A stretch of 51,755 nucleotides of DNA from a virus. The position numbers were made by a program, and so were the translations under genes. This document shows positions 12,933 through 23,673 of the stretch, piece by piece (within the stretch, counting starts at the first letter, position 1; each line of letters begins with the position of its first letter). The stretch is taken from positions 1-51,755 of the IMG/VR virus record IMGVR_UViG_3300042691_048901; one strand, written 5' to 3'. The notes below the pieces were generated by a model that was given only the letters and a program-made list of their open reading frames with translations, did no database searches and was not told the origin of the DNA.

Positions 12933-13220
12933 ATGAAAAAAATTCAAACAAAAGTTACAAAAGTATATGAAGTTGATGGTGTAAATTACGCTTCAATTCA
13001 AGAAGCAAATATTGCTATCGCAGTTTCCGAAATTGCTGATTTAGTTGGCTCAAAAGAAATAGCAATGCTATTAGTAGATACTGCAAGCGATGCGACAAAA
13101 AGAGAAGTGTTGGTAAAAGCACTTAAGCTTTTAAATGTAAGAAAACCACTTGCCCCCAGAAAAAAAGTAGCAAAGACTACTAAAGTTGAGAAAACTGCGG
13201 TAAAAACTACTAAAGTTTAG
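12933..13220 (+). CDS. Small early protein with Lys-rich histone-like tail
   Basis: 95 residues: beta start (TKVYEVDGVNYAS), a helical middle and a basic tail with repeated KTTKV (residues 80-95) like nucleic-acid-binding tails. Function unknown. A pistol ribozyme begins 3 nt after its stop, so its mRNA is expected to be cut in the 3' untranslated region. Confidence 0.65.
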   Translation: MKKIQTKVTKVYEVDGVNYASIQEANIAIAVSEIADLVGSKEIAMLLVDTASDATKREVLVKALKLLNVRKPLAPRKKVAKTTKVEKTAVKTTKV

Positions 13221-13222
13221 TA

Positions 13223-13293
13223 TCTTCGATTGGACGAAGTAAAATAGCTCTTAGGTCCAATGCGTGCCACGCCGAGAAGGTGTTGCGGTGAGA
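13223..13293 (+). ncRNA. Pistol self-cleaving ribozyme A (divergent copy)
   Basis: P1 CTTCG/CGAAG (13224-13228/13235-13239) encloses ATTGGA, which pairs with TCCAAT (13256-13261) as the pistol pseudoknot. The core between them, TAAAATAG...TTAGG, and GCG after the pseudoknot match the consensus. P3 is imperfect and leads to GCGG|TG (cut expected 13288/13289). Stem sequences differ from the other copies while pairing is kept. It lies between a stop codon and promoter P6. Confidence 0.82.
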
Positions 13294-13300
13294 AAAATTA

Positions 13301-13331
13301 GGTTTACAAAAAAACTTAATTATATTATAAT
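13301..13331 (+). promoter_or_regulatory. Early promoter P6
   Basis: GGTTTACA, 17 nt, TATAAT (13326-13331); the ATG at 13353 is 21 nt later with SD ggag. Confidence 0.87.
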
Positions 13332-13352
13332 AAGAATACAATCGGAGAAAAT

Positions 13353-13634
13353 ATGTTAATCACAAAAAAAAGCACTACTACAACTCTTAATATTAAAACT
13401 TCCACTAAGCAAAATTTTGCAGATTTATTTGCATTTATAAAAAATCTTACACCAGATTCTTATATTGAAAATTTTAAAGTTTTAGACGAAGATGAAGATT
13501 CTAATTATTTTTATTATACTGTAGTTTATGATATTACCAATATTTACAATGAGTATATGTTGGCAGATGGTAATGAAGTTTCCGCTAGAACCTATATTCC
13601 AAAAAAGAAAAAAGTTAAGGTTTCTAAAAAATAG
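13353..13634 (+). CDS. Small early protein, 93 aa, unknown
   Basis: Thr/Lys-rich start, acidic middle (DEDEDSNYFYY) and a Lys-rich end (PKKKKVKVSKK). No family recognised. SD ggag; its last codons contain the -35 of promoter P7. Confidence 0.68.
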   Translation: MLITKKSTTTTLNIKTSTKQNFADLFAFIKNLTPDSYIENFKVLDEDEDSNYFYYTVVYDITNIYNEYMLADGNEVSARTYIPKKKKVKVSKK

Positions 13635-13649
13635 TAAACAGACTATAAT
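13619..13649 (+). promoter_or_regulatory. Early promoter P7 (weak -35)
   Basis: GG then TTTCTA, 17 nt, TATAAT (13644-13649). The -35 overlaps the end of the upstream gene, which may explain its deviation. ATG at 13671 is 21 nt from the -10. Confidence 0.7.
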
Positions 13650-13670
13650 AAAAATACAAGCGAGGTGAAT

Positions 13671-14036
13671 ATGAATACTACTGAAATTTCAATCAATCCC
13701 AAAGAATTAGGAATCAGCGGAAATGGTTCTTCTGAATATAGAAAATATGCTGCATTACAATATTTTCAAGAATCTTTCCCTTCTGAAGTTCTTGCCACCA
13801 CAACTGTTAAGTTTTTAAATTTTGAAGTTTCGAAATGGCAAGAAAGACAAGAACCAAAAATAGTTCTTCGAGACGAAAAATTTCTACCAGAAATTTCTTG
13901 GGTAAAGATTTATACCACCACTAGTGTTTATGAGTATAAAGTTTTTCAACAACCATTTCAAAATTTTGGCGAATATAGATATACTGTTACTTTTTACGAA
14001 GTGCTTCCAAGAAAAATTTTAGCAACAGTAAATTAA
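13671..14036 (+). CDS. Small early protein, 121 aa, unknown
   Basis: Start at ATG 13671 with gagg 5 nt upstream; an in-frame GTG at 13665 overlaps the SD. Predicted mixed alpha/beta with a C-terminal beta-rich half (KIYTTTSVYEYKVF, YRYTVTFYEVLPR). Not recognised. Followed by the MGLDMY gene in the same transcript. Confidence 0.68.
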   Translation: MNTTEISINPKELGISGNGSSEYRKYAALQYFQESFPSEVLATTTVKFLNFEVSKWQERQEPKIVLRDEKFLPEISWVKIYTTTSVYEYKVFQQPFQNFGEYRYTVTFYEVLPRKILATVN

Positions 14037-14058
14037 GATTATATAAGGAGAAATTATT

Positions 14059-14436
14059 ATGGGTTTAGATATGTATGCTTATTCAGTTGATTCAAAAAAT
14101 CTTTCACAAGAAAGCAATCTTATGCTTCATTTACAAAATGGTTCTGTTATTGCTGAATGGAGAAAGCATCATAAACTTTTTTCTTGGATGCGAGATTTAT
14201 ATATTCAAAAAACTGGTGATACAGAAACCGATTTTAATTTAGTTCCGGTTGTTTTAAATAAAAACGATATTAAAACATTATTGCAAGAAGTGCTTTGTAA
14301 TTGTGAAGAGTTGCCTACAGGTGTTACAATTAGTTATAATAAAGATCATTATCTTCCTGAAGATTTAGATTTTATTGAATATGCTGAAAAAGAGATTAAA
14401 AAAGGACGCAGTATTATTTTCATGGGGGATTATTAA
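14059..14436 (+). CDS. MGLDMYxY-family conserved protein
   Basis: 125 residues starting MGLDMYAY, then IAEWRKHHKLFSWM, FNLVPVVLNKNDI, PTGVTISYN and DLDFIEYAEKEIKKG. This order is typical of a small family common in phages and bacteria whose function is unknown (often annotated only as hypothetical). SD aagga. A pistol ribozyme follows the stop by 11 nt. Confidence 0.75.
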   Translation: MGLDMYAYSVDSKNLSQESNLMLHLQNGSVIAEWRKHHKLFSWMRDLYIQKTGDTETDFNLVPVVLNKNDIKTLLQEVLCNCEELPTGVTISYNKDHYLPEDLDFIEYAEKEIKKGRSIIFMGDY

Positions 14437-14447
14437 GCATCTCCAAT

Positions 14448-14532
14448 AGTCGTTATGGCGACTTTAAATAGTTTCTTAAGCCATTAGCGTGTATTACATA
14501 GAGTAAAAAAATTCCTATGTAATGCGGTGAAA
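14448..14532 (+). ncRNA. Pistol self-cleaving ribozyme B
   Basis: P1 AGTCG/CGACT; loop TATGG pairs with CCATT (pseudoknot); invariant core TTTAAATAGTTTCTTAAG and AGCGT as in the pistol consensus; P3 ATTACATAG/CTATGTAAT (14493-14501/14515-14523); then GCGG|TG with expected cleavage 14527/14528. It lies 7 nt upstream of promoter P8. Confidence 0.92.
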
Positions 14533-14538
14533 ACAAAA

Positions 14539-14569
14539 GGTTTACAAAAAAAATTAAATAGATTATAAT
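14539..14569 (+). promoter_or_regulatory. Early promoter P8
   Basis: GGTTTACA, 17 nt, TATAAT (14564-14569). Followed after 21 nt by a 22-aa ORF with SD aagga, then the tRNA genes. Confidence 0.88.
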
Positions 14570-14590
14570 AAATACATAAGGAAAACAAAA

Positions 14591-14659
14591 ATGATTATAA
14601 TTCAAATAATTCTTATTATATATATTGTAATTGGAATTAAAATTTGTATAGAATCTTAA
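14591..14659 (+). CDS. 22-residue hydrophobic peptide
   Basis: Reads MIIIQIILIIYIVIGIKI then CIES: essentially one transmembrane helix. SD aagga 8 nt upstream and promoter P8 at the standard 21-nt distance support translation. It leads the tRNA transcript. It is similar in kind to the 29-residue peptide at 15342. Confidence 0.6.
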   Translation: MIIIQIILIIYIVIGIKICIES

Positions 14660-14682
14660 TTCAAATAATTTTTTAAATTTTT

Positions 14683-14755
14683 GAGTTGTTAGCTCAGCTG
14701 GTAGAGCATCTCCCTTTTAAGGAGAGGGTCTCGGGTTCGAATCCCGAACGACTCA
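14683..14755 (+). tRNA. tRNA-Lys (TTT)
   Basis: Complete cloverleaf: acceptor GAGTTGT/ACGACTC, D arm GCTC...GAGC, anticodon loop CTTTTAA, T arm CGGGTTCGAATCCCG. No CCA encoded. Confidence 0.96.
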
Positions 14756-14765
14756 CGTAATACTT

Positions 14766-14837
14766 GATCTCGTCGCCAAGTGGTAAGGCAAGGGTCTGCA
14801 AAATCCTTATACCTCGGTTCGATTCCGAGCGAGATCT
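14766..14837 (+). tRNA. tRNA-Cys (GCA)
   Basis: Acceptor GATCTCG/CGAGATC, anticodon stem AGGGT/ATCCT with loop CTGCAAA, T loop TTCGATT. No CCA encoded; the unidentified RNA motif starts 4 nt later. Confidence 0.94.
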
Positions 14838-14840
14838 TAA

Positions 14841-14916
14841 ATTTTAGTGTAGTTTATCTAGTGAAAACAACGACTACATGTCGGAAAAGTGAGACTTGGA
14901 ATCTCACCACTAAAAT
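14841..14916 (+). ncRNA. Unidentified tRNA-sized structured RNA, copy 1
   Basis: Outer stem ATTTTAGTG/CACTAAAAT (9 bp) encloses three arms: GTTT/AAAC, CGAC/GTCG and GTGAGA/TCTCAC. A 39-nt core (14850-14888) is identical to copy 2 at 15071-15109, while the outer and third stems differ in sequence but still pair, i.e. covariation. It resembles a tRNA in size and layout but lacks a normal anticodon arm and T loop. T4 also encodes two stable non-tRNA RNAs in its tRNA cluster; this could be an analogue or another ribozyme class. Confidence 0.72.
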
Positions 14917-14919
14917 AAT

Positions 14920-15004
14920 AGTCGTTATGGCGACTTTAAATAGTTTCTTAAGCCATAAGCGTGTATTATATAGAGTAAAGAAATTCCTATGTAATGCGGT
15001 GAAA
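14920..15004 (+). ncRNA. Pistol self-cleaving ribozyme C
   Basis: P1 AGTCG/CGACT; pseudoknot TTATGG/CCATAA is perfect (14925-14930/14953-14958); core TTTAAATAGTTTCTTAAG; P3 ATTATATAG/CTATGTAAT with a T-G wobble where copy B has C-G; cleavage GCGG|TG at 14999/15000. It lies 10 nt upstream of promoter P9. Confidence 0.93.
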
Positions 15005-15014
15005 AAAAATAAAA

Positions 15015-15045
15015 GGTTTACAAAAACAAATAAAAAAAGTATAAT
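15015..15045 (+). promoter_or_regulatory. Early promoter P9 for RNA genes
   Basis: GGTTTACA, 17 nt, TATAAT (15040-15045). Transcription would start about 15052, some 12 nt before RNA motif copy 2, and read through pistol D and tRNA-Tyr. Confidence 0.87.
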
Positions 15046-15063
15046 AAAGATATAAACAATAAA

Positions 15064-15136
15064 CTGCATTTAGTTTATCTAGTGAAAACAACGACTACAT
15101 GTCGGAAAAGCAGGGCTATGGAATCCTGCAATGCAA
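15064..15136 (+). ncRNA. Unidentified tRNA-sized structured RNA, copy 2
   Basis: Outer stem TGCATT/AATGCA and third stem GCAGG/CCTGC replace the stems of copy 1 with different, still complementary sequences; the core 15071-15109 is identical. It is the first element after promoter P9, so the RNA itself is likely the product. Confidence 0.72.
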
Positions 15137-15154
15137 AATTGTTGTTATCTTAAT

Positions 15155-15236
15155 AGTCGTTATGGCGACTTTAAATAGTTTCTTAAGCCATTAGCGTGTG
15201 TTACACTCTATATATGTATTGTGTAATGCGGTGAAA
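15155..15236 (+). ncRNA. Pistol self-cleaving ribozyme D
   Basis: Same P1, pseudoknot and core as copy B. P3 has changed to a TTACAC...GTGTAA stem. Cleavage GCGG|TG at 15231/15232 would leave a 7-nt leader (TGAAAAA) with a 5'-OH on tRNA-Tyr. Confidence 0.92.
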
Positions 15237-15238
15237 AA

Positions 15239-15319
15239 GGGTTTGATGTTCTAATGGTAGGACAGTGGCCTGTAAAGCCACCGCTTCAAGCATAGTTGGT
15301 TCGATTCCAACCAAACCCA
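15239..15319 (+). tRNA. tRNA-Tyr (GTA)
   Basis: Acceptor GGGTTTG/CAAACCC, anticodon stem GTGGC/GCCAC with loop CTGTAAA, long variable arm typical of bacterial tRNA-Tyr, T arm GTTGGTTCGATTCCAAC. No CCA encoded. Confidence 0.95.
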
Positions 15320-15341
15320 AAATTTTTTCAAAGGAGAAAAA

Positions 15342-15431
15342 ATGTTAGAAACAATTGGAACAGTTTTAGTAGTATATATGGTAATTGGTTTTTTAATTAA
15401 TTTAAGTGCTGGACGCAAAATCATTCCTTAA
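15342..15431 (+). CDS. 29-residue single-span membrane peptide
   Basis: Begins MLETIGTVLVVYMVIGF and ends with GRKIIP: one transmembrane helix with a positive C-terminus. Strong SD aaggag 6 nt upstream. Similar in pattern to the peptide at 14591. Unknown function. Confidence 0.62.
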   Translation: MLETIGTVLVVYMVIGFLINLSAGRKIIP

Positions 15432-15440
15432 GATTATACT

Positions 15441-15671
15441 ATGAATTGGACAACTTTAGAAATTGAACCAAATATTTCATTTATCTGTAATACAGAAAAT
15501 GAAGAACCAGTTGTATATGTAACAAAAGCGCATACGCCTGGAGTTAGTAATTCAGACTATTGGGTTGTTGCTATTGAAAGTAAATATTTTTGTTTAGAGA
15601 AAAAATTTAGCACTGAAAATGAAGCACATATTTTTGCTAAAAATTTAATCTTGTGTGGAGTAAAAGCTTAA
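15441..15671 (+). CDS. Small early protein, 76 aa, unknown
   Basis: Beta-rich start (FICNTENEEPVVYVTK), then KKFSTENEAHIFAKNLILCG. This ending resembles that of the 69-aa protein at 21437 (EKSFQNEDNAIAFMQTFIDAG), so the two are probably paralogues. Starts 9 nt after the membrane peptide. Confidence 0.65.
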   Translation: MNWTTLEIEPNISFICNTENEEPVVYVTKAHTPGVSNSDYWVVAIESKYFCLEKKFSTENEAHIFAKNLILCGVKA

Positions 15672-15722
15672 AATATTTTAGACATTTTAATTAAGCGAAA
15701 AGTAAAATAAAAAAAACAATAC

Positions 15723-15794
15723 GCTCCCATCGTCTAACGGTTAGGACATTAGATTTTCATTCTAAGAATAGGGGTTCGATTCCCCTTGGGAGTA
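15723..15794 (+). tRNA. tRNA-Glu (TTC)
   Basis: Acceptor GCTCCCA/TGGGAGT (G-T at the first pair), anticodon stem TTAGA/TCTAA with loop TTTTCAT, T arm GGGGTTCGATTCCCC. No CCA. Confidence 0.94.
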
Positions 15795-15800
15795 TTACAA

Positions 15801-16102
15801 TGGCAAGTAGCTCAGTAGGTAGTAGCAAGGCACTGTTTTTTGGCAGTACATAAAAGAAATTTTATGATATAGCTTATGCAAATAAGTTGATGTAAATTCG
15901 GTGAACGGCGGACACTAAAATGTTGCCCAATACCGAGCGAAGCCTTAGAAATAAGGAACGTGTAGAGACTATAATCATCCGCCTAAGTATTGTAAAATAT
16001 ATGGTGAAGGGATAGTCCAGACCACAAACAACTTTTGTTGGTAGTGTAAACTATAGTGGTAAAGTAATGCCTAGGTCGTTGGTTCGAGCCCAACCTTGCC
16101 AG
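15801..16102 (+). tRNA. tRNA-Asn (GTT), split by a group I intron
   Basis: Exon 1 15801-15836 and exon 2 16065-16102. After splicing: acceptor TGGCAAG/CTTGCCA, anticodon stem AGGCA/TGCCT, loop CTGTTAA (anticodon GTT), T loop TTCGAGC, discriminator G as expected for Asn. The intron interrupts the anticodon between its second and third bases. Confidence 0.9.
15837..16064 (+). ncRNA. Group I intron in tRNA-Asn anticodon loop
   Basis: 228 nt. P1 is formed by exon ACTGT (15832-15836) and intron GCAGT (15843-15847), with the obligatory U-G wobble at the 5' splice site (15836-15843). P7 is GACTAT (15967-15972) with ATAGTC (16012-16017). The intron ends in G (16064). It carries no ORF; an HNH homing endonuclease follows 107 nt downstream and may be its mobility partner in trans. 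Confidence 0.88.
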
Positions 16103-16134
16103 CCAGTTATTTTTTTATTTTTTTTATTAAAAAT

Positions 16135-16171
16135 AAACTGTTAACTAAATATAATATAAGGTTAACAGTTT
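16135..16171 (+). promoter_or_regulatory. RBS-sequestering hairpin with possible late promoter in the loop
   Basis: An 11-bp perfect inverted repeat (AAACTGTTAAC / GTTAACAGTTT) ends directly at the ATG at 16172. The 15-nt loop contains TAAATATA and most of the SD (AAGG, 16158-16161). Long transcripts would hide the SD, while transcripts started in the loop would lack the left arm and be translated, as described for T4 I-TevI. Confidence 0.65.
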
Positions 16172-16834
16172 ATGAATTATAAAAAAATATATTTTAATTT
16201 AGTTAGAAAAAGAAAAAAAGAAGTTATAAAAAACGAATATTATGAAAATCACCATATTATTCCAAGATCTTTTGGTGGGAATAATAAAAAAAATAATATA
16301 GTTTCTTTAACTGCAAAAGAACATTATATTGCACATTTACTTTTAAGTAAAATGTTTAAATATAATAAAGAAAAAGAGATTAAAATGAAGTTTGCTTTAA
16401 TAATGATGACAGTTTCGGCTTTAAATCAAAAAAGATTTACTTCTATTAAATTTGAACAACTTAGAAAAAATGTTAGTAAATTAACAAGTATTTCTCAAGC
16501 GGGAAGTAAAAATTCTCAATTTGGAAAAATGTGGATTACTAATGGATTAGAAAATAAAAGTATTTTTAAAATTGATGCAATACCAGAAGGATGGGAAAAA
16601 GGAAGATTTATTAAAAAAAAATCTATAAAAGAAATAAAAATTAAAAATACAATAAATTATGAAAATAATAAAATTTATTATACAAATTTATACGAAATTT
16701 ATTCAAAAGAAGGATGGAATAAAATTAAAAATGTTTATTTATTTTCAAAACAAAATTTTGTGCAATGTTGCAAAAAATATGTTGATTCTTTTATTCCACA
16801 AAATGGAAAAAAAAGAGGGAGCCAGCAATCATAG
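16172..16834 (+). CDS. HNH homing endonuclease
   Basis: 220 residues. HNH core NHHIIPRSFGGNN (His27, His28) followed by NIVSLTAKEHYIAHLLL (Asn42, His51, His55) is typical of phage free-standing or intron HNH homing enzymes. Residues 111-125 (GSKNSQFGKMWITNG) look like a NUMOD-type DNA-binding segment. It cuts intron-less or empty alleles to spread. It lies just after the intron-containing tRNA-Asn, with an expression-control hairpin at its start. Its TAG stop is made from the first bases of pistol ribozyme E, so insertion was fitted tightly between RNA genes. Confidence 0.88.
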   Translation: MNYKKIYFNLVRKRKKEVIKNEYYENHHIIPRSFGGNNKKNNIVSLTAKEHYIAHLLLSKMFKYNKEKEIKMKFALIMMTVSALNQKRFTSIKFEQLRKNVSKLTSISQAGSKNSQFGKMWITNGLENKSIFKIDAIPEGWEKGRFIKKKSIKEIKIKNTINYENNKIYYTNLYEIYSKEGWNKIKNVYLFSKQNFVQCCKKYVDSFIPQNGKKRGSQQS

Positions 16835-16914
16835 TCGTTATGGCGACTTTAAATAGTTTCTTAAGCCATTAGCGTGTATTACACTCTATATATATATTGT
16901 GTAATGTGGTGAAA
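16833..16914 (+). ncRNA. Pistol self-cleaving ribozyme E
   Basis: P1, pseudoknot and core as in copies B and D; P3 ATTACAC...GTGTAAT. 3' strand reads GTGG|TG (C to T relative to GCGG), cut expected 16909/16910, leaving a 9-nt leader on tRNA-Asp. Confidence 0.9.
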
Positions 16915-16918
16915 ATTT

Positions 16919-16995
16919 GGAGCTATAGCTCAGTTGGTTAGAGCGCCTGATTGTCAATCAGGAAGTCACGGGTTCAAGTCCCGTTAGTTCCGCCA
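16919..16995 (+). tRNA. tRNA-Asp (GTC), CCA encoded
   Basis: Acceptor GGAGCTA/TAGTTCC, discriminator G, encoded CCA; anticodon stem CCTGA/TCAGG with loop TTGTCAA; T arm CGGGTTCAAGTCCCG. One of only two tRNAs here with encoded CCA. Confidence 0.95.
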
Positions 16996-17109
16996 TGGTT
17001 TCATTTATAGAAATAGTCGAACTGTTTTGCTATATTGGCGACTTTAAATAAACTTAGCAAAATAATACAATCTTTTGTTGGTTTAGATTGTATTCTATAC
17101 TAGAAACCA
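16996..17109 (+). ncRNA. Degenerate pistol-like pseudoknotted RNA
   Basis: P1 AGTCG/CGACT (17015-17019/17039-17043), pseudoknot TTTTGCTA/TAGCAAAA (17025-17032/17055-17062), core TTTAAATA and a 9-bp P3 AATACAATC/GATTGTATT follow the pistol plan, but the GCGGTG cleavage strand is missing. Extra flanking stems TGGTTTC/GAAACCA and TATAG/CTATA close the whole element. Either a dead ribozyme or a different structured RNA. Confidence 0.6.
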
Positions 17110-17117
17110 ACAAATAT

Positions 17118-17194
17118 TCCCTCTTGGCCAAGTTGGTAAGGCAACTGTTTTTGGCACAGTGATCCCTCGTTCGAGTCGAGTCAAGGAGAGGGAA
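17118..17194 (+). tRNA. tRNA-Gln (TTG), T arm enlarged by a 5-nt duplication (probable pseudo-tRNA)
   Basis: Acceptor TCCCTCT/AGAGGGA is perfect, D arm GCC...GGC, anticodon stem ACTGT/ACAGT with loop TTTTGGC. The T arm reads CCTCG, then TTCGAGTCGAGT, then CAAGG: CGAGT is present twice, making a 12-nt T loop. Deleting one copy restores a 7-nt TTCGAGT loop. Likely non-functional, or repaired/tolerated. Confidence 0.75.
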
Positions 17195-17213
17195 ATGTTA
17201 TTGTAAAAAAATT

Positions 17214-17221
17214 TATAAATA
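17214..17221 (+). promoter_or_regulatory. T4 late promoter match (TATAAATA)
   Basis: Exact T4 late -10 octamer, 33 nt upstream of the endonuclease start at 17255. A TAAATATA also occurs at 17240. No sigma70 -35 nearby. Confidence 0.45.
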
Positions 17222-17254
17222 GTTTTACCAATGAGTTATTAAATATAATAATAT

Positions 17255-18070
17255 ATGAATAGAAAAGATGGTAAATCAAAAACAAAAAGTTTTACAATTT
17301 GTAATAAATGTAATGATTCAATTAGCAATTATGCTTTTAATAGACATTATAATGTTTGTAAAGGAATAAATAAAAATTTAAGATATAAAAAAGAAGTAAC
17401 AGGTCTTCATCAAATGAATGTTAAAAAAATTGATGAAAATATTTATTTATGTTTAGATTGCAATAAAGAATATTCAAAAACCGGAATAGGATCGCATTAT
17501 TGGAGAAATCATACTAATATAGGAAAAATATTTACTCCTAATAAAGAAAAATCCAAAAAACCAGGATGGAATAAAGGATTAACAAAAGAATTAGATAGTA
17601 GATTAGCTCATTCAGAAGAAACAAAAAATAAAATTAAAGAAAAAAGCTTAGGTAGAAAACATTCAGAATCATTTAAGGTATCACAATCAAAAAAAGCAAA
17701 AGAAAGGGGATTAGGAGGGGTCAGGCAATCAAAAAAAATAAATTATAATGGAAAAACATTGGGAAGCACTTATGAATTAATTTTAGCTAAAAATCTTGAT
17801 GATAATAATATAAAATGGAATATACCAAATAGAATTAATTATATTGATCCTTTTGGTAAGCACAGAACATATCAACCTGATTTTTATTTAGAAGATTATA
17901 ATGTATATATAGATCCTAAAAATGATTTTTTAATAAATAATATAAACCCTTCTTTAGGTTTTAATGATTTAGAAAAAATATCATTAGTTGAAATTCAAAA
18001 TAATTTAAAAATAATAGTTGTTAATAAAAATCAATTAAGTTGGGAATATATTAAAAAAATGCTACCTTAG
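17255..18070 (+). CDS. Zinc-finger/NUMOD3 homing endonuclease with Vsr-like nuclease domain
   Basis: 271 residues. Two zinc fingers (Cys16/Cys19/His31/Cys35 and Cys66/Cys69/His81/His86), a NUMOD3 region at about 103-150 (PGWNKGLTKE, then SEETKNKIKEK), and a C-terminal nuclease domain with STYELILAKNLDD, GKHRTYQPDFYL and YIDPKND (about 170-223), the pattern of the PD-(D/E)xK/Vsr-like (EDxHD-type) homing enzymes. It would cut near or in tRNA-Thr of empty alleles. The last codons and the TAG stop (CTACCTTAG) belong to the acceptor and position 8-9 of tRNA-Thr, so gene and tRNA overlap by 10 nt. Confidence 0.82.
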   Translation: MNRKDGKSKTKSFTICNKCNDSISNYAFNRHYNVCKGINKNLRYKKEVTGLHQMNVKKIDENIYLCLDCNKEYSKTGIGSHYWRNHTNIGKIFTPNKEKSKKPGWNKGLTKELDSRLAHSEETKNKIKEKSLGRKHSESFKVSQSKKAKERGLGGVRQSKKINYNGKTLGSTYELILAKNLDDNNIKWNIPNRINYIDPFGKHRTYQPDFYLEDYNVYIDPKNDFLINNINPSLGFNDLEKISLVEIQNNLKIIVVNKNQLSWEYIKKMLP

Positions 18071-18131
18071 TTTAAAGGTAAAACTCTACACTTGTAATGT
18101 AGGTTTGCAAGTTCAATTCTTGCAGGTAGCT
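18061..18131 (+). tRNA. tRNA-Thr (TGT)
   Basis: Acceptor GCTACCT/AGGTAGC, anticodon stem CTACA/TGTAG with loop CTTGTAA, T arm GCAAGTTCAATTCTTGC. Its 5' end supplies the stop codon of the upstream endonuclease. Confidence 0.94.
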
Positions 18132-18142
18132 CCAGTTATCTT

Positions 18143-18224
18143 AGTCGTTATGGCGACTTTAAATAGTTTCTTAAGCCATTAGCGTGTGTTACACTCTACG
18201 TTTGTATTGTGTGATGCAGTGAAA
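18143..18224 (+). ncRNA. Pistol self-cleaving ribozyme F
   Basis: P1, pseudoknot and core as in the other copies. P3 TTACAC.../GTGTGA. The cleavage strand reads GCAG|TG instead of GCGG|TG (cut expected 18219/18220), so it may be weaker. It would leave an 8-nt leader on tRNA-Pro. Confidence 0.88.
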
Positions 18225-18227
18225 AAG

Positions 18228-18302
18228 CGGAATGTGGTGTAGCGGTCAACATGCCTGTTTTGGGAACAGGAGATTTCGCAGGTTCAAATCCTGCCATTCC
18301 GA
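18228..18302 (+). tRNA. tRNA-Pro (TGG)
   Basis: Acceptor CGGAATG/CATTCCG, anticodon stem CCTGT/ACAGG with loop TTTGGGA, T arm GCAGGTTCAAATCCTGC. No CCA. Confidence 0.94.
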
Positions 18303-18945: not shown

Positions 18946-19806
18946 ATGAAGTCATTTCAATATTATTTAGAAGCAGCGAAAAATCAAAATAAAAAATTAT
19001 GGTTAGATGATGAGCGATTACCTATAGAATCTAATTGGGTAGTAGTGCAAAATCAAAAAGAATTTGAAAATGCAGTACGTAAAAATCGTTGGTTGCGTTT
19101 TTCTGAATTTTCATTTGATAATGATTTAGGAACCGGAAATGGTTCTGGATATGATTGTGCTTGGTTTCTAATTAATGAAATATTAGATTATATTGCTATG
19201 CAACCAAAGAATGAAACATTAAAATTAAATTTAAAAATTAGAATTCATTCGCATAATCCAGTTGCTAGTAAACAGATTTATTCTTTATTTAATAATTTTT
19301 TTAAAGCTCAAAAAGAAGATGGTAGTATTGCGCAAGAAAGCATAATGGAATTAATACTTCTACCAGCAATTTATAAAAAAGAATTTTTTATACACAATAA
19401 AATTATAAGTTTAGCTATAAGAAAAAGTATAGCTTCTGTATATAAACAAGGTATATCATGCGGAATTGAAGATTGCTCTGATGCTTCTGCAGCTTTTGTT
19501 TATCATGCAAATACTGGAAAAACTGTGCTGGATGGCATTACAGAAAAATGGAATGATGGAGAAAGTGGGCCGTGGTATTTAGCTTATGTAGAAGTAAATG
19601 GTGCTCCACATAATGTAGCATATAATAACAAAACAAAAATAATTGTTGATCTTACCTTAGGACAATTTAAAAACTATAAAGATTTAAAAGCGGTTATTTT
19701 ACAAAAAGAAAATTATTTAAGCTTAATAAATTCAGAAGTATTTAATATACAAAAATATACAATAAGCGATACTCTACAAGTTCTTTATAAAAAATTAAAA
19801 AGATAA
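18946..19806 (+). CDS. Putative capsid-internal cREC domain plus papain-like protein
   Basis: 286 residues beginning MKSFQYYLEAAKN. Residues 17-115: KLWLDDERLP, FSFDNDLGTGNGSGYDCA, IRIHSHNPVASK, the signature of the cyclic-phosphate-processing receiver (cREC) domain, predicted in the literature to act in RNA-repair settings on cyclic phosphate ends. Residues 165-245: CGIEDCSDASAAFVYHA (Cys172/Cys177), NGAPHNVAY (His222) and IVDLTLGQF (Asp235), an order of Cys-His-Asp like papain/transglutaminase-type folds. A fusion of these with a head-targeting peptide is unusual. Catalysis by either domain is inference. Confidence 0.7.
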   Translation: MKSFQYYLEAAKNQNKKLWLDDERLPIESNWVVVQNQKEFENAVRKNRWLRFSEFSFDNDLGTGNGSGYDCAWFLINEILDYIAMQPKNETLKLNLKIRIHSHNPVASKQIYSLFNNFFKAQKEDGSIAQESIMELILLPAIYKKEFFIHNKIISLAIRKSIASVYKQGISCGIEDCSDASAAFVYHANTGKTVLDGITEKWNDGESGPWYLAYVEVNGAPHNVAYNNKTKIIVDLTLGQFKNYKDLKAVILQKENYLSLINSEVFNIQKYTISDTLQVLYKKLKR

Positions 19807-22441: not shown

Positions 22442-22615
22442 ATGAATAAAAACGAACTATTAAAAACTTTAAATGCAAAACTTGCAGAATTAGATCCTGT
22501 ATTATTGGATTCTTTTTTTTGTGGCTCAAGTGAAAGTAATGCGGCTTATGAACAAGGTTATGAAAATGGTTTATTATTTGCATTACAAATGCTTTCTAAA
22601 TTAGAGGATTCATAA
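22442..22615 (+). CDS. Small early protein, 57 aa, leads the RNA ligase gene
   Basis: MNKNELLKTLNAKLAELD start, then CGSSESNAAYEQGYENG and a helical end. Its TAA overlaps the ATG of the RNA ligase gene by 1 nt (TAATG), so the two are translationally coupled. It resembles small phage proteins with an AYEQGYENG motif; function unknown. Confidence 0.68.
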   Translation: MNKNELLKTLNAKLAELDPVLLDSFFCGSSESNAAYEQGYENGLLFALQMLSKLEDS

Positions 22616-23673
22616 TGAAATTAAATGAACCAGAAATAAATGAATTACGTTCACTTATTGCAGACGGAATGGTAAATGATAGACGTCATTCTTCTTTGCC
22701 ACTTACCATTTATAGCTATTCTAAAAGTGCACAATTTGCACCACGCTCAGTTTGGAGTCCTATGCTATCATTATGCAGAGGATTAGTTTTAGATGACACA
22801 TATAATATTGTGGCGCATCCTTTAAAAAAATTTTGGAATATAGAAGAAGAAAGTGCTTTTAAAATTAAAGAGCTACTTAATTTGCAATACACTGTTACAA
22901 AAAAAATGGATGGTAGTTTAGGTATTCTTTTTAATTATAATGGTCAATGGATTTGGGCAACACGTGGATCTTTTATTTCAGAGCAATCGCTTGAAGCATA
23001 TAAAATCCATAATGAAAAAAATTATTCTTATGAAGTTTTAAATCCACAATATACATATCTATTTGAAATACTATATCCACAAAATAGAATAGTAGTTGAT
23101 TATGGTGATACACGAGAATTAATTTTACTTGCAATTTTTGATAGAAATAGCGGTGAAGAAATTCTACAATATCCACCTCAATATCCACTTGTATCAAATG
23201 AAGCGCTAGCAAGTCCATCTGAATTAAAATCTAAAAATATTATCAATGAAGAAGGCTATGTAATACGTTTTAGTAATGGTATGCGAACTAAAATTAAATT
23301 TGAAAATTATGTTACTCTACATGGTATTATGACTGAATGCACCAATTTAAGAATTTGGAGCGCACTTAGTAGCGGCGAAAGTTGGGATTCGCTAATTGAA
23401 TTAATTCCTGATGAATTTTATGCAGGTATGCAAGACGTAATAAATGAATTTAATACTGAATATGATTCTATGTTGAGCGCAGCAAAAATAATAGCGGATA
23501 GATATTCAAATTTCCCTAGTCGTAAAGAATTTGCAATAGAAGTTACTACATGCTATTCAAAAATTTCAGGTGTTATTTTTGCATTATTACGATCAGAAGA
23601 AGAAGCAAGTAAAATTATTTGGGGCTTATTAAAACCAAAAGAAATTTTTAAAATTAAAATAAAAGGACAATAA
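22615..23673 (+). CDS. rnlA: RNA ligase, T4 Rnl1-like
   Basis: 352 residues (T4 Rnl1 has 374). Nucleotidyltransferase motif I is KMDGS at 97-101 (Lys97 would be adenylated). Upstream CRGLVLD and downstream WATRGSF, YLFEILYPQNRIVVDY, EEGYVIRF and KIKFENY are motifs III, IIIa, IV and V of Rnl1-type ligases. It joins 3'-OH to 5'-phosphate RNA ends, in T4 to repair tRNA broken by host anticodon nucleases. In this phage pistol cleavage also makes ends that need repair chemistry, although a kinase/phosphatase is not seen in the window. Early expression from P12. Confidence 0.9.
   Translation: MKLNEPEINELRSLIADGMVNDRRHSSLPLTIYSYSKSAQFAPRSVWSPMLSLCRGLVLDDTYNIVAHPLKKFWNIEEESAFKIKELLNLQYTVTKKMDGSLGILFNYNGQWIWATRGSFISEQSLEAYKIHNEKNYSYEVLNPQYTYLFEILYPQNRIVVDYGDTRELILLAIFDRNSGEEILQYPPQYPLVSNEALASPSELKSKNIINEEGYVIRFSNGMRTKIKFENYVTLHGIMTECTNLRIWSALSSGESWDSLIELIPDEFYAGMQDVINEFNTEYDSMLSAAKIIADRYSNFPSRKEFAIEVTTCYSKISGVIFALLRSEEEASKIIWGLLKPKEIFKIKIKGQ

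Follow-up and report, generated by a model that had tools for sequence, protein, structure and literature searches.

Six pistol ribozymes at gene boundaries in a phage early/tRNA region, three with predicted cut sites just upstream of tRNAs

The stretch of DNA analysed here (the window), 51,755 bases long, is the IMG/VR virus record IMGVR_UViG_3300042691_048901, which carries six pistol ribozymes (A to F) within 5 kb of a region of early genes and tRNAs. Their identity and positions, and their spacing relative to neighbouring genes and promoter-like sites, are established by the comparisons described below. Each of the six lies at a boundary between transcribed elements, and three are predicted to cut 7-9 nucleotides (nt) upstream of a tRNA. 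These results make it probable that the six elements are bona fide pistols and serve as boundary cutters in a tightly packed polycistronic early/tRNA region.

A search of the whole window with Rfam cmscan gave exactly six matches to RF02679 (Pistol) above the gathering score of 34.5 bits, all on the + strand. The original prediction had placed six pistol copies at these positions and had suggested this search as a check. The six ribozymes, all identified by Rfam, are as follows; the matches to B and C stop early because their P3 helices are long.

13223-13293, + strand: pistol A (match 13224-13293, 47.2 bits); predicted cut before U13289; 2 nt past the stop of the open reading frame (ORF) 12933-13220; promoter at 13303.
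14448-14532, + strand: pistol B (match 14448-14508, 38.3 bits); predicted cut before U14528; 11 nt past the stop of ORF 14059-14436; promoter at 14541.
14920-15004, + strand: pistol C (match 14920-14980, 39.8 bits); predicted cut before U15000; directly 3' of a cloverleaf-shaped structured RNA, E1; promoter at 15017.
15155-15236, + strand: pistol D (match 15155-15230, 34.8 bits, and 42.0 bits in a second Rfam search that found the same six); predicted cut before U15232, leaving UGAAAAA (7 nt) before tRNA-Tyr; 3' of a second cloverleaf-shaped RNA, E2.
16833-16914, + strand: pistol E (match 16833-16911, 42.5 bits); overlaps the stop codon of a homing endonuclease ORF; predicted cut before U16910, leaving UGAAAAUUU (9 nt) before tRNA-Asp.
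18143-18224, + strand: pistol F (match 18143-18216, 34.6 bits); between tRNA-Thr and tRNA-Pro; predicted cut before U18220, leaving UGAAAAAG (8 nt) before tRNA-Pro.

The core motif AAAUA-N4/5-UUA-R-G-N6-GCGU occurs in the window at the six pistol sites only, never on the opposite strand, and did not occur in any of 300 simulated order-1 Markov windows. As a control, 83 other phage records were searched, 80 with related RNA ligases and three with distant sheath relatives. Only one of these records, the 290-kb contig that is the closest relative found for the window (sheath identity 53%), contained a Pistol match at E<=0.01, and the remaining 82 had none, indicating that chance Pistol hits are rare. 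On the basis of the control records and the simulated windows, chance was rejected as the origin of the six matches.

Because automatic alignment misplaced P3, the helices were read manually off the sequence and their pairs tabulated, as were the pairs of two other phage pistols. P1, P2, P3 and the pseudoknot, which joins the P1 loop with the P2-P3 junction, are present in all six copies, with 4 pairs in P1, 4 in P2 (3 in A), 6-7 in the pseudoknot and 9-12 in P3. UUA-R-G-N6-GCG is likewise found in every copy, so that purine 32, G33, G40, C41 and G42, described as important in pistol ribozymes (PMC6154101), are all kept, as is the two-nucleotide GU junction between P3 and P2. The conservation of P1, pseudoknot and core that had been noticed earlier thus extends to each of the six. 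The compensating bases claimed for P3 stand in part: every P3 pair holds across B-F despite differing sequence, but the changes among these copies are modest and mostly one-sided (G-C/G-U/A-U), the only two-sided change being the distal pair, which is U-A in B and C and C-G in D-F. At the base of P3, pistol F has U-A in place of U-G. Pistol A has a P3 that differs throughout and includes one C-U mismatch. Owing to these features, A (with its mismatch and 3-bp P2) and F (with its altered P3 base) would be the most probable weak cutters among the six. By every feature tested, the six elements are ordinary pistols.

Pistol ribozymes cleave at G|U and thereby produce a 2',3'-cyclic phosphate and a 5'-OH. 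Published work assigns the cut to the GU that joins P3 to P2 (PMC4604425). The G|U expected for the cut is present in all six copies and, in the published nomenclature, separates P3 from the 3' strand of P2 and does not lie before the 3' strand of P3 as had been proposed. The 5' ends that these cuts would give to the downstream products (13289, 14528, 15000, 15232, 16910 and 18220) are nevertheless identical to those given by the original prediction. For D, E and F, comparison with the 5' ends assigned by ARAGORN gives predicted leaders of 7, 9 and 8 nt for tRNA-Tyr, tRNA-Asp and tRNA-Pro, respectively, in agreement with the 7-9 nt that had been proposed. These tRNAs and the upstream neighbour of pistol F, all assigned by ARAGORN, are located as follows.

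15239-15319, + strand: tRNA-Tyr (GUA).
16919-16995, + strand: tRNA-Asp (GUC).
18228-18302, + strand: tRNA-Pro (UGG).
18061-18134, + strand: tRNA-Thr (UGU), upstream neighbour of pistol F.

When the non-coding positions of 13-18.9 kb were considered and the copies were treated as independent, the probability of finding three or more of the six cuts within 12 nt before a tRNA was 0.008, a figure that serves as a guide only because the copies are duplicates. The 5' half is almost identical in B-F, which raises the alternative that the copies arose as repeats that spread through recombination or together with homing endonucleases and tRNA cassettes. They might then still cut, and their placement would reflect insertion into scarce non-coding gaps rather than selection for processing. 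Two endonuclease-like ORFs among the pistols, a chimeric pistol-like element at 17013 and the small amount of non-coding space (only about 1.4 kb in 13-18.9 kb) are consistent with such spreading. However, P3 varies while its pairing is kept, the cut-to-tRNA spacing of 7-9 nt occurs three times, all copies lie on the transcribed strand, and the sequence common to the copies stops at the leader, with the tRNAs outside it. We therefore regard spreading without selection for processing as unlikely, although it is the alternative to which we give most weight.

On the upstream side, the element preceding each of the six pistols, whether ORF, tRNA or structured RNA, ends no more than 16 nt from the start of the pistol, and this is the more constant side of their placement. 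On the downstream side, promoters follow A, B and C, and tRNAs follow D, E and F. The three promoters have the form TTTACA-17-TATAAT with 11/12 matches and directly follow the pistols, which bears out the earlier proposal that A, B and C adjoin early promoters.

13303-13331, + strand: early-type promoter TTTACA-17-TATAAT after pistol A; member of the repeated family.
14541-14569, + strand: early-type promoter after pistol B; same repeated family.
15017-15045, + strand: early-type promoter after pistol C; the last copy of the family before the stretch from tRNA-Tyr to tRNA-His.

The family comprises at least seven near-identical copies of GGTTTACA-N17-TATAAT between 11463 and 15055, which precede small ORFs. 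Because its last copy is that at 15017, the stretch from tRNA-Tyr to tRNA-His is probably one long transcript. Between 11 and 19 kb, the + strand showed no terminator-like site. This result and the constant upstream spacing (6/6) would also fit an alternative in which the 3' side alone matters, the pistols serving as protected 3' ends in place of terminators and the downstream tRNA or promoter being merely the next gene in a compact genome. In that case neither the three downstream leaders of 7, 9 and 8 nt nor the short leaders ahead of the start codons at other phage pistols would be expected, and we consider this alternative improbable.

As boundary cutters, the pistols would act during transcription, each cutting at its G|U directly behind the upstream gene, tRNA or structured RNA. 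The upstream RNA would then have the compact pistol fold and a 2',3'-cyclic phosphate at its 3' end, possibly a stand-in for a terminator, and the downstream RNA would begin with a 5'-OH. For D, E and F, tRNA-Tyr, tRNA-Asp and tRNA-Pro would receive an A-rich leader of 7-9 nt, forming a short precursor for host RNase P, and would be released from a structured RNA (D), from the homing-endonuclease message 16172-16834 (E) and from another tRNA (F). For A, B and C, the upstream unit would be ended just ahead of the next promoter. The location of all six pistols at boundaries supports the idea of a transcript layout divided by ribozymes, in which the activity itself is predicted. Cutting in vivo, and RNA separation as the selected function, are what we infer from this layout.

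The original prediction had further described this layout as independent of host RNases, and the cuts near three tRNA 5' ends might suggest tRNA processing of that kind. Because the cut leaves 7-9 nt, however, RNase P would still be required for the mature tRNA 5' end, and because the whole ribozyme (about 65-80 nt) stays as the trailer of the upstream RNA, as predicted for tRNA-Thr ahead of pistol F, nucleases would still be required for 3' maturation. In addition, 9/12 tRNA genes in the window are not preceded by a pistol. These results argue against independence from host RNases, which we consider extremely improbable.

The nine tRNA genes without a pistol also weigh against the role of the pistols as boundary cutters, as do several promoters of the same family that have no pistol. 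The scores of D and F barely exceed the Rfam cut-off, B-F are recent duplicates whose placements are not independent, and the sole pistol of the closest relative is not near a tRNA. Conversely, both other phage pistols lie between a stop codon and the next start, which supports the boundary reading. In the 290-kb relative, the single pistol is located between two ORFs and has a predicted leader of 13 nt; in a second virus record, a stop codon is followed by the pistol, a predicted leader of 18 nt and an ATG. At 1493-1505 of the locus from the relative (L010, minus strand), the leader contains a GGAG that is both the 3' strand of pistol P2 and the likely Shine-Dalgarno sequence of the next ORF; because of these two roles, folding or cutting could affect the translation of that ORF. 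No tRNA was found within 1.5 kb of either of these phage pistols, nor in the loci fetched around 16 pistols in 14 clostridial genomes. Four pattern scans of viral contigs for pistols gave one hit in total, the zero of the first pattern being uninformative because it carried a one-base error both in the P1 loop and in the spacing ahead of TTA. Within this limited sample, lying at a boundary seems to be common among phage pistols, and the pairing with tRNAs seems special to this phage.

The structured RNAs upstream of pistols C and D, and a further element upstream of tRNA-Gln, are as follows.

14841-14916, + strand: cloverleaf-shaped structured RNA E1; 40-nt exact repeat, fold z -3.5, compensatory changes relative to E2.
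15062-15138, + strand: cloverleaf-shaped RNA E2, between the promoter at 15017 and pistol D; supported by repeat, fold and compensatory changes.
17013-17116, + strand: pistol-like element before tRNA-Gln, with P1 and UUAAAUA followed by two long-range pairings (from the sequence and a pairing test).

E1 and E2 have an exact 40-nt core in common, and their sequences diverge in the outer stem and the final hairpin, where seven two-sided compensatory changes are found. Each folds into a cloverleaf of four arms in which the linker measures 2 nt, the 'variable' stretch measures 5 nt and the final hairpin stacks directly on the outer stem, an arrangement that is tRNA-like but has no recognisable T loop or 7-nt anticodon loop. 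E1 ends 3 nt before pistol C and E2 ends 16 nt before pistol D, so that C and D would make their 3' ends. No Rfam family matches E1 or E2, and the repeat was found neither in a viral-contig scan nor by blastn of 14830-15250 against phage records. A two-sequence cloverleaf model detected no copy in 28 other records, although the model was weakened by an alignment whose 3' half was one base off register for E2.

For the element at 17013, the loop is enlarged, the pseudoknot is a different one (UUUUGCUA/UAGCAAAA), and the loop of the P3-like hairpin could form 11 bp with the stretch immediately upstream of tRNA-Gln. The two long-range pairings are improbable as chance events, with p values of 0.007 and 0.003 in mononucleotide shuffles, for regions picked after being seen. 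This element was rejected as a seventh pistol, since it has no Rfam match even at an E value of 5 and lacks GCGU, the 3' strand of P2 and the GU; candidate readings are a relic, a chimera or a new variant.

Two genes for RNA repair lie downstream, within about 5 kb of pistol F.

18946-19806, + strand: cREC-domain protein, with predicted cyclic-phosphate processing (PF20274, E 3.8e-16).
22615-23673, + strand: T4 Rnl1-type RNA ligase (PF09511, E 2.6e-17; phrog_562).

The relative encodes cREC, Rnl1 and a T4-like polynucleotide kinase (Pnkp), the kinase about 4 kb from its pistol, and in an Ochrobactrum phage the genes for kinase, cREC and ligase are adjacent and form an operon. The action of cREC on 2',3'-cyclic phosphates is a proposal (PMC7824862, PMC9503650). 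The ribozyme ends might accordingly feed phage RNA-end repair, with cREC, a kinase/phosphatase and Rnl1 healing, rejoining or circularising the products. Against this, no pistol was present in 82 other phage records chosen by the same ligase or sheath, these enzymes are generally understood to repair host-cleaved tRNA, and no kinase was found in the window. As an explanation of the ribozymes, repair of their ends is very improbable; the cREC and Rnl1 genes fit tRNA repair after host attack, and a link to the cyclic phosphate and 5'-OH ends is no more than possible. More tentatively than for boundary cutting itself, and with considerable doubt, the six pistols may be regarded as punctuation that frees several kinds of RNA from common transcripts: tRNAs with RNase P-ready leaders, early messages and a new class of cloverleaf-shaped small RNA, the 3' ends of E1 and E2 being made by C and D and the resulting ends perhaps being handled by the phage cREC and Rnl1.

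To judge from its genes, the window derives from a T4-like tailed phage: a Gp23-type capsid protein is encoded at its left end, a tail sheath gene is also present, and SbcC/SbcD-like genes lie at its right end. Because the closest relative is a 290-kb contig, the window is probably a piece of a jumbo phage genome. ARAGORN identified 11 tRNAs in the window, 10 of them within 14.7-18.9 kb, and a twelfth when introns were allowed. The latter, tRNA-Asn(GUU) at 15801-16105, has its anticodon loop split by a 228-nt intron with group I-like sequence; Rfam reported no group I intron there. The tRNA cluster also contains the homing endonuclease ORF (16172-16834) and a second endonuclease-like ORF (17255-18070).

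The six elements have P1, P2, P3, the pseudoknot, the conserved core and the GU junction in common with the described pistols (RF02679; Harris et al. 2015, PMC4604425). Pistols are known to adjoin phage genes, but that paper makes no mention of tRNAs, whereas the window has six copies in 5 kb, three of them with cuts predicted 7-9 nt before tRNAs. No tRNA was close to any of the 18 other pistols examined, and literature searches covering open-licence PMC papers gave no description of pistols placed upstream of tRNAs. The nearest precedent for the layout is the hepatitis delta virus (HDV)-like theta ribozymes of gut phages, small self-cleaving RNAs that adjoin tRNA genes and, according to a proposal by Kienbeck et al. 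2024 (PMC10879173), contribute to tRNA maturation. Theta ribozymes have an HDV-like fold and cut at tRNA 3' ends, as a rule no more than 1 nt away, whereas the ribozymes in the window are unrelated to them and are predicted to cut 7-9 nt before the 5' end. No HDV-like nested double pseudoknot was identified here, only Pistol and tRNA matching at the gathering threshold and no HDV-like family even at an E value of 5. Nor does the layout agree with the theta placement of the cut within +/-5 nt of a tRNA 3' end, the cut of F being predicted some 85 nt downstream of tRNA-Thr. Phage RNA-repair gene sets (cREC, Pnkp and Rnl1; PMC7824862, PMC9503650) are represented by two members in the window and by all three in the relative, but are not known to work with ribozymes, which are unmentioned in PMC7824862. 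The novelty therefore lies in the arrangement, not in the chemistry.

The cloverleaf RNAs beside pistols C and D match no Rfam family and represent an undescribed RNA worth study. To our knowledge, the natural job of pistol ribozymes has not been established. In this phage, several pistols lie precisely at boundaries, and three have predicted cuts 7-9 nt upstream of tRNAs; this arrangement offers a concrete candidate job, the cutting of polycistronic early/tRNA transcripts. If this is true, then, together with the theta ribozymes at tRNA 3' ends, phages would have recruited unrelated ribozymes to both sides of their tRNAs.

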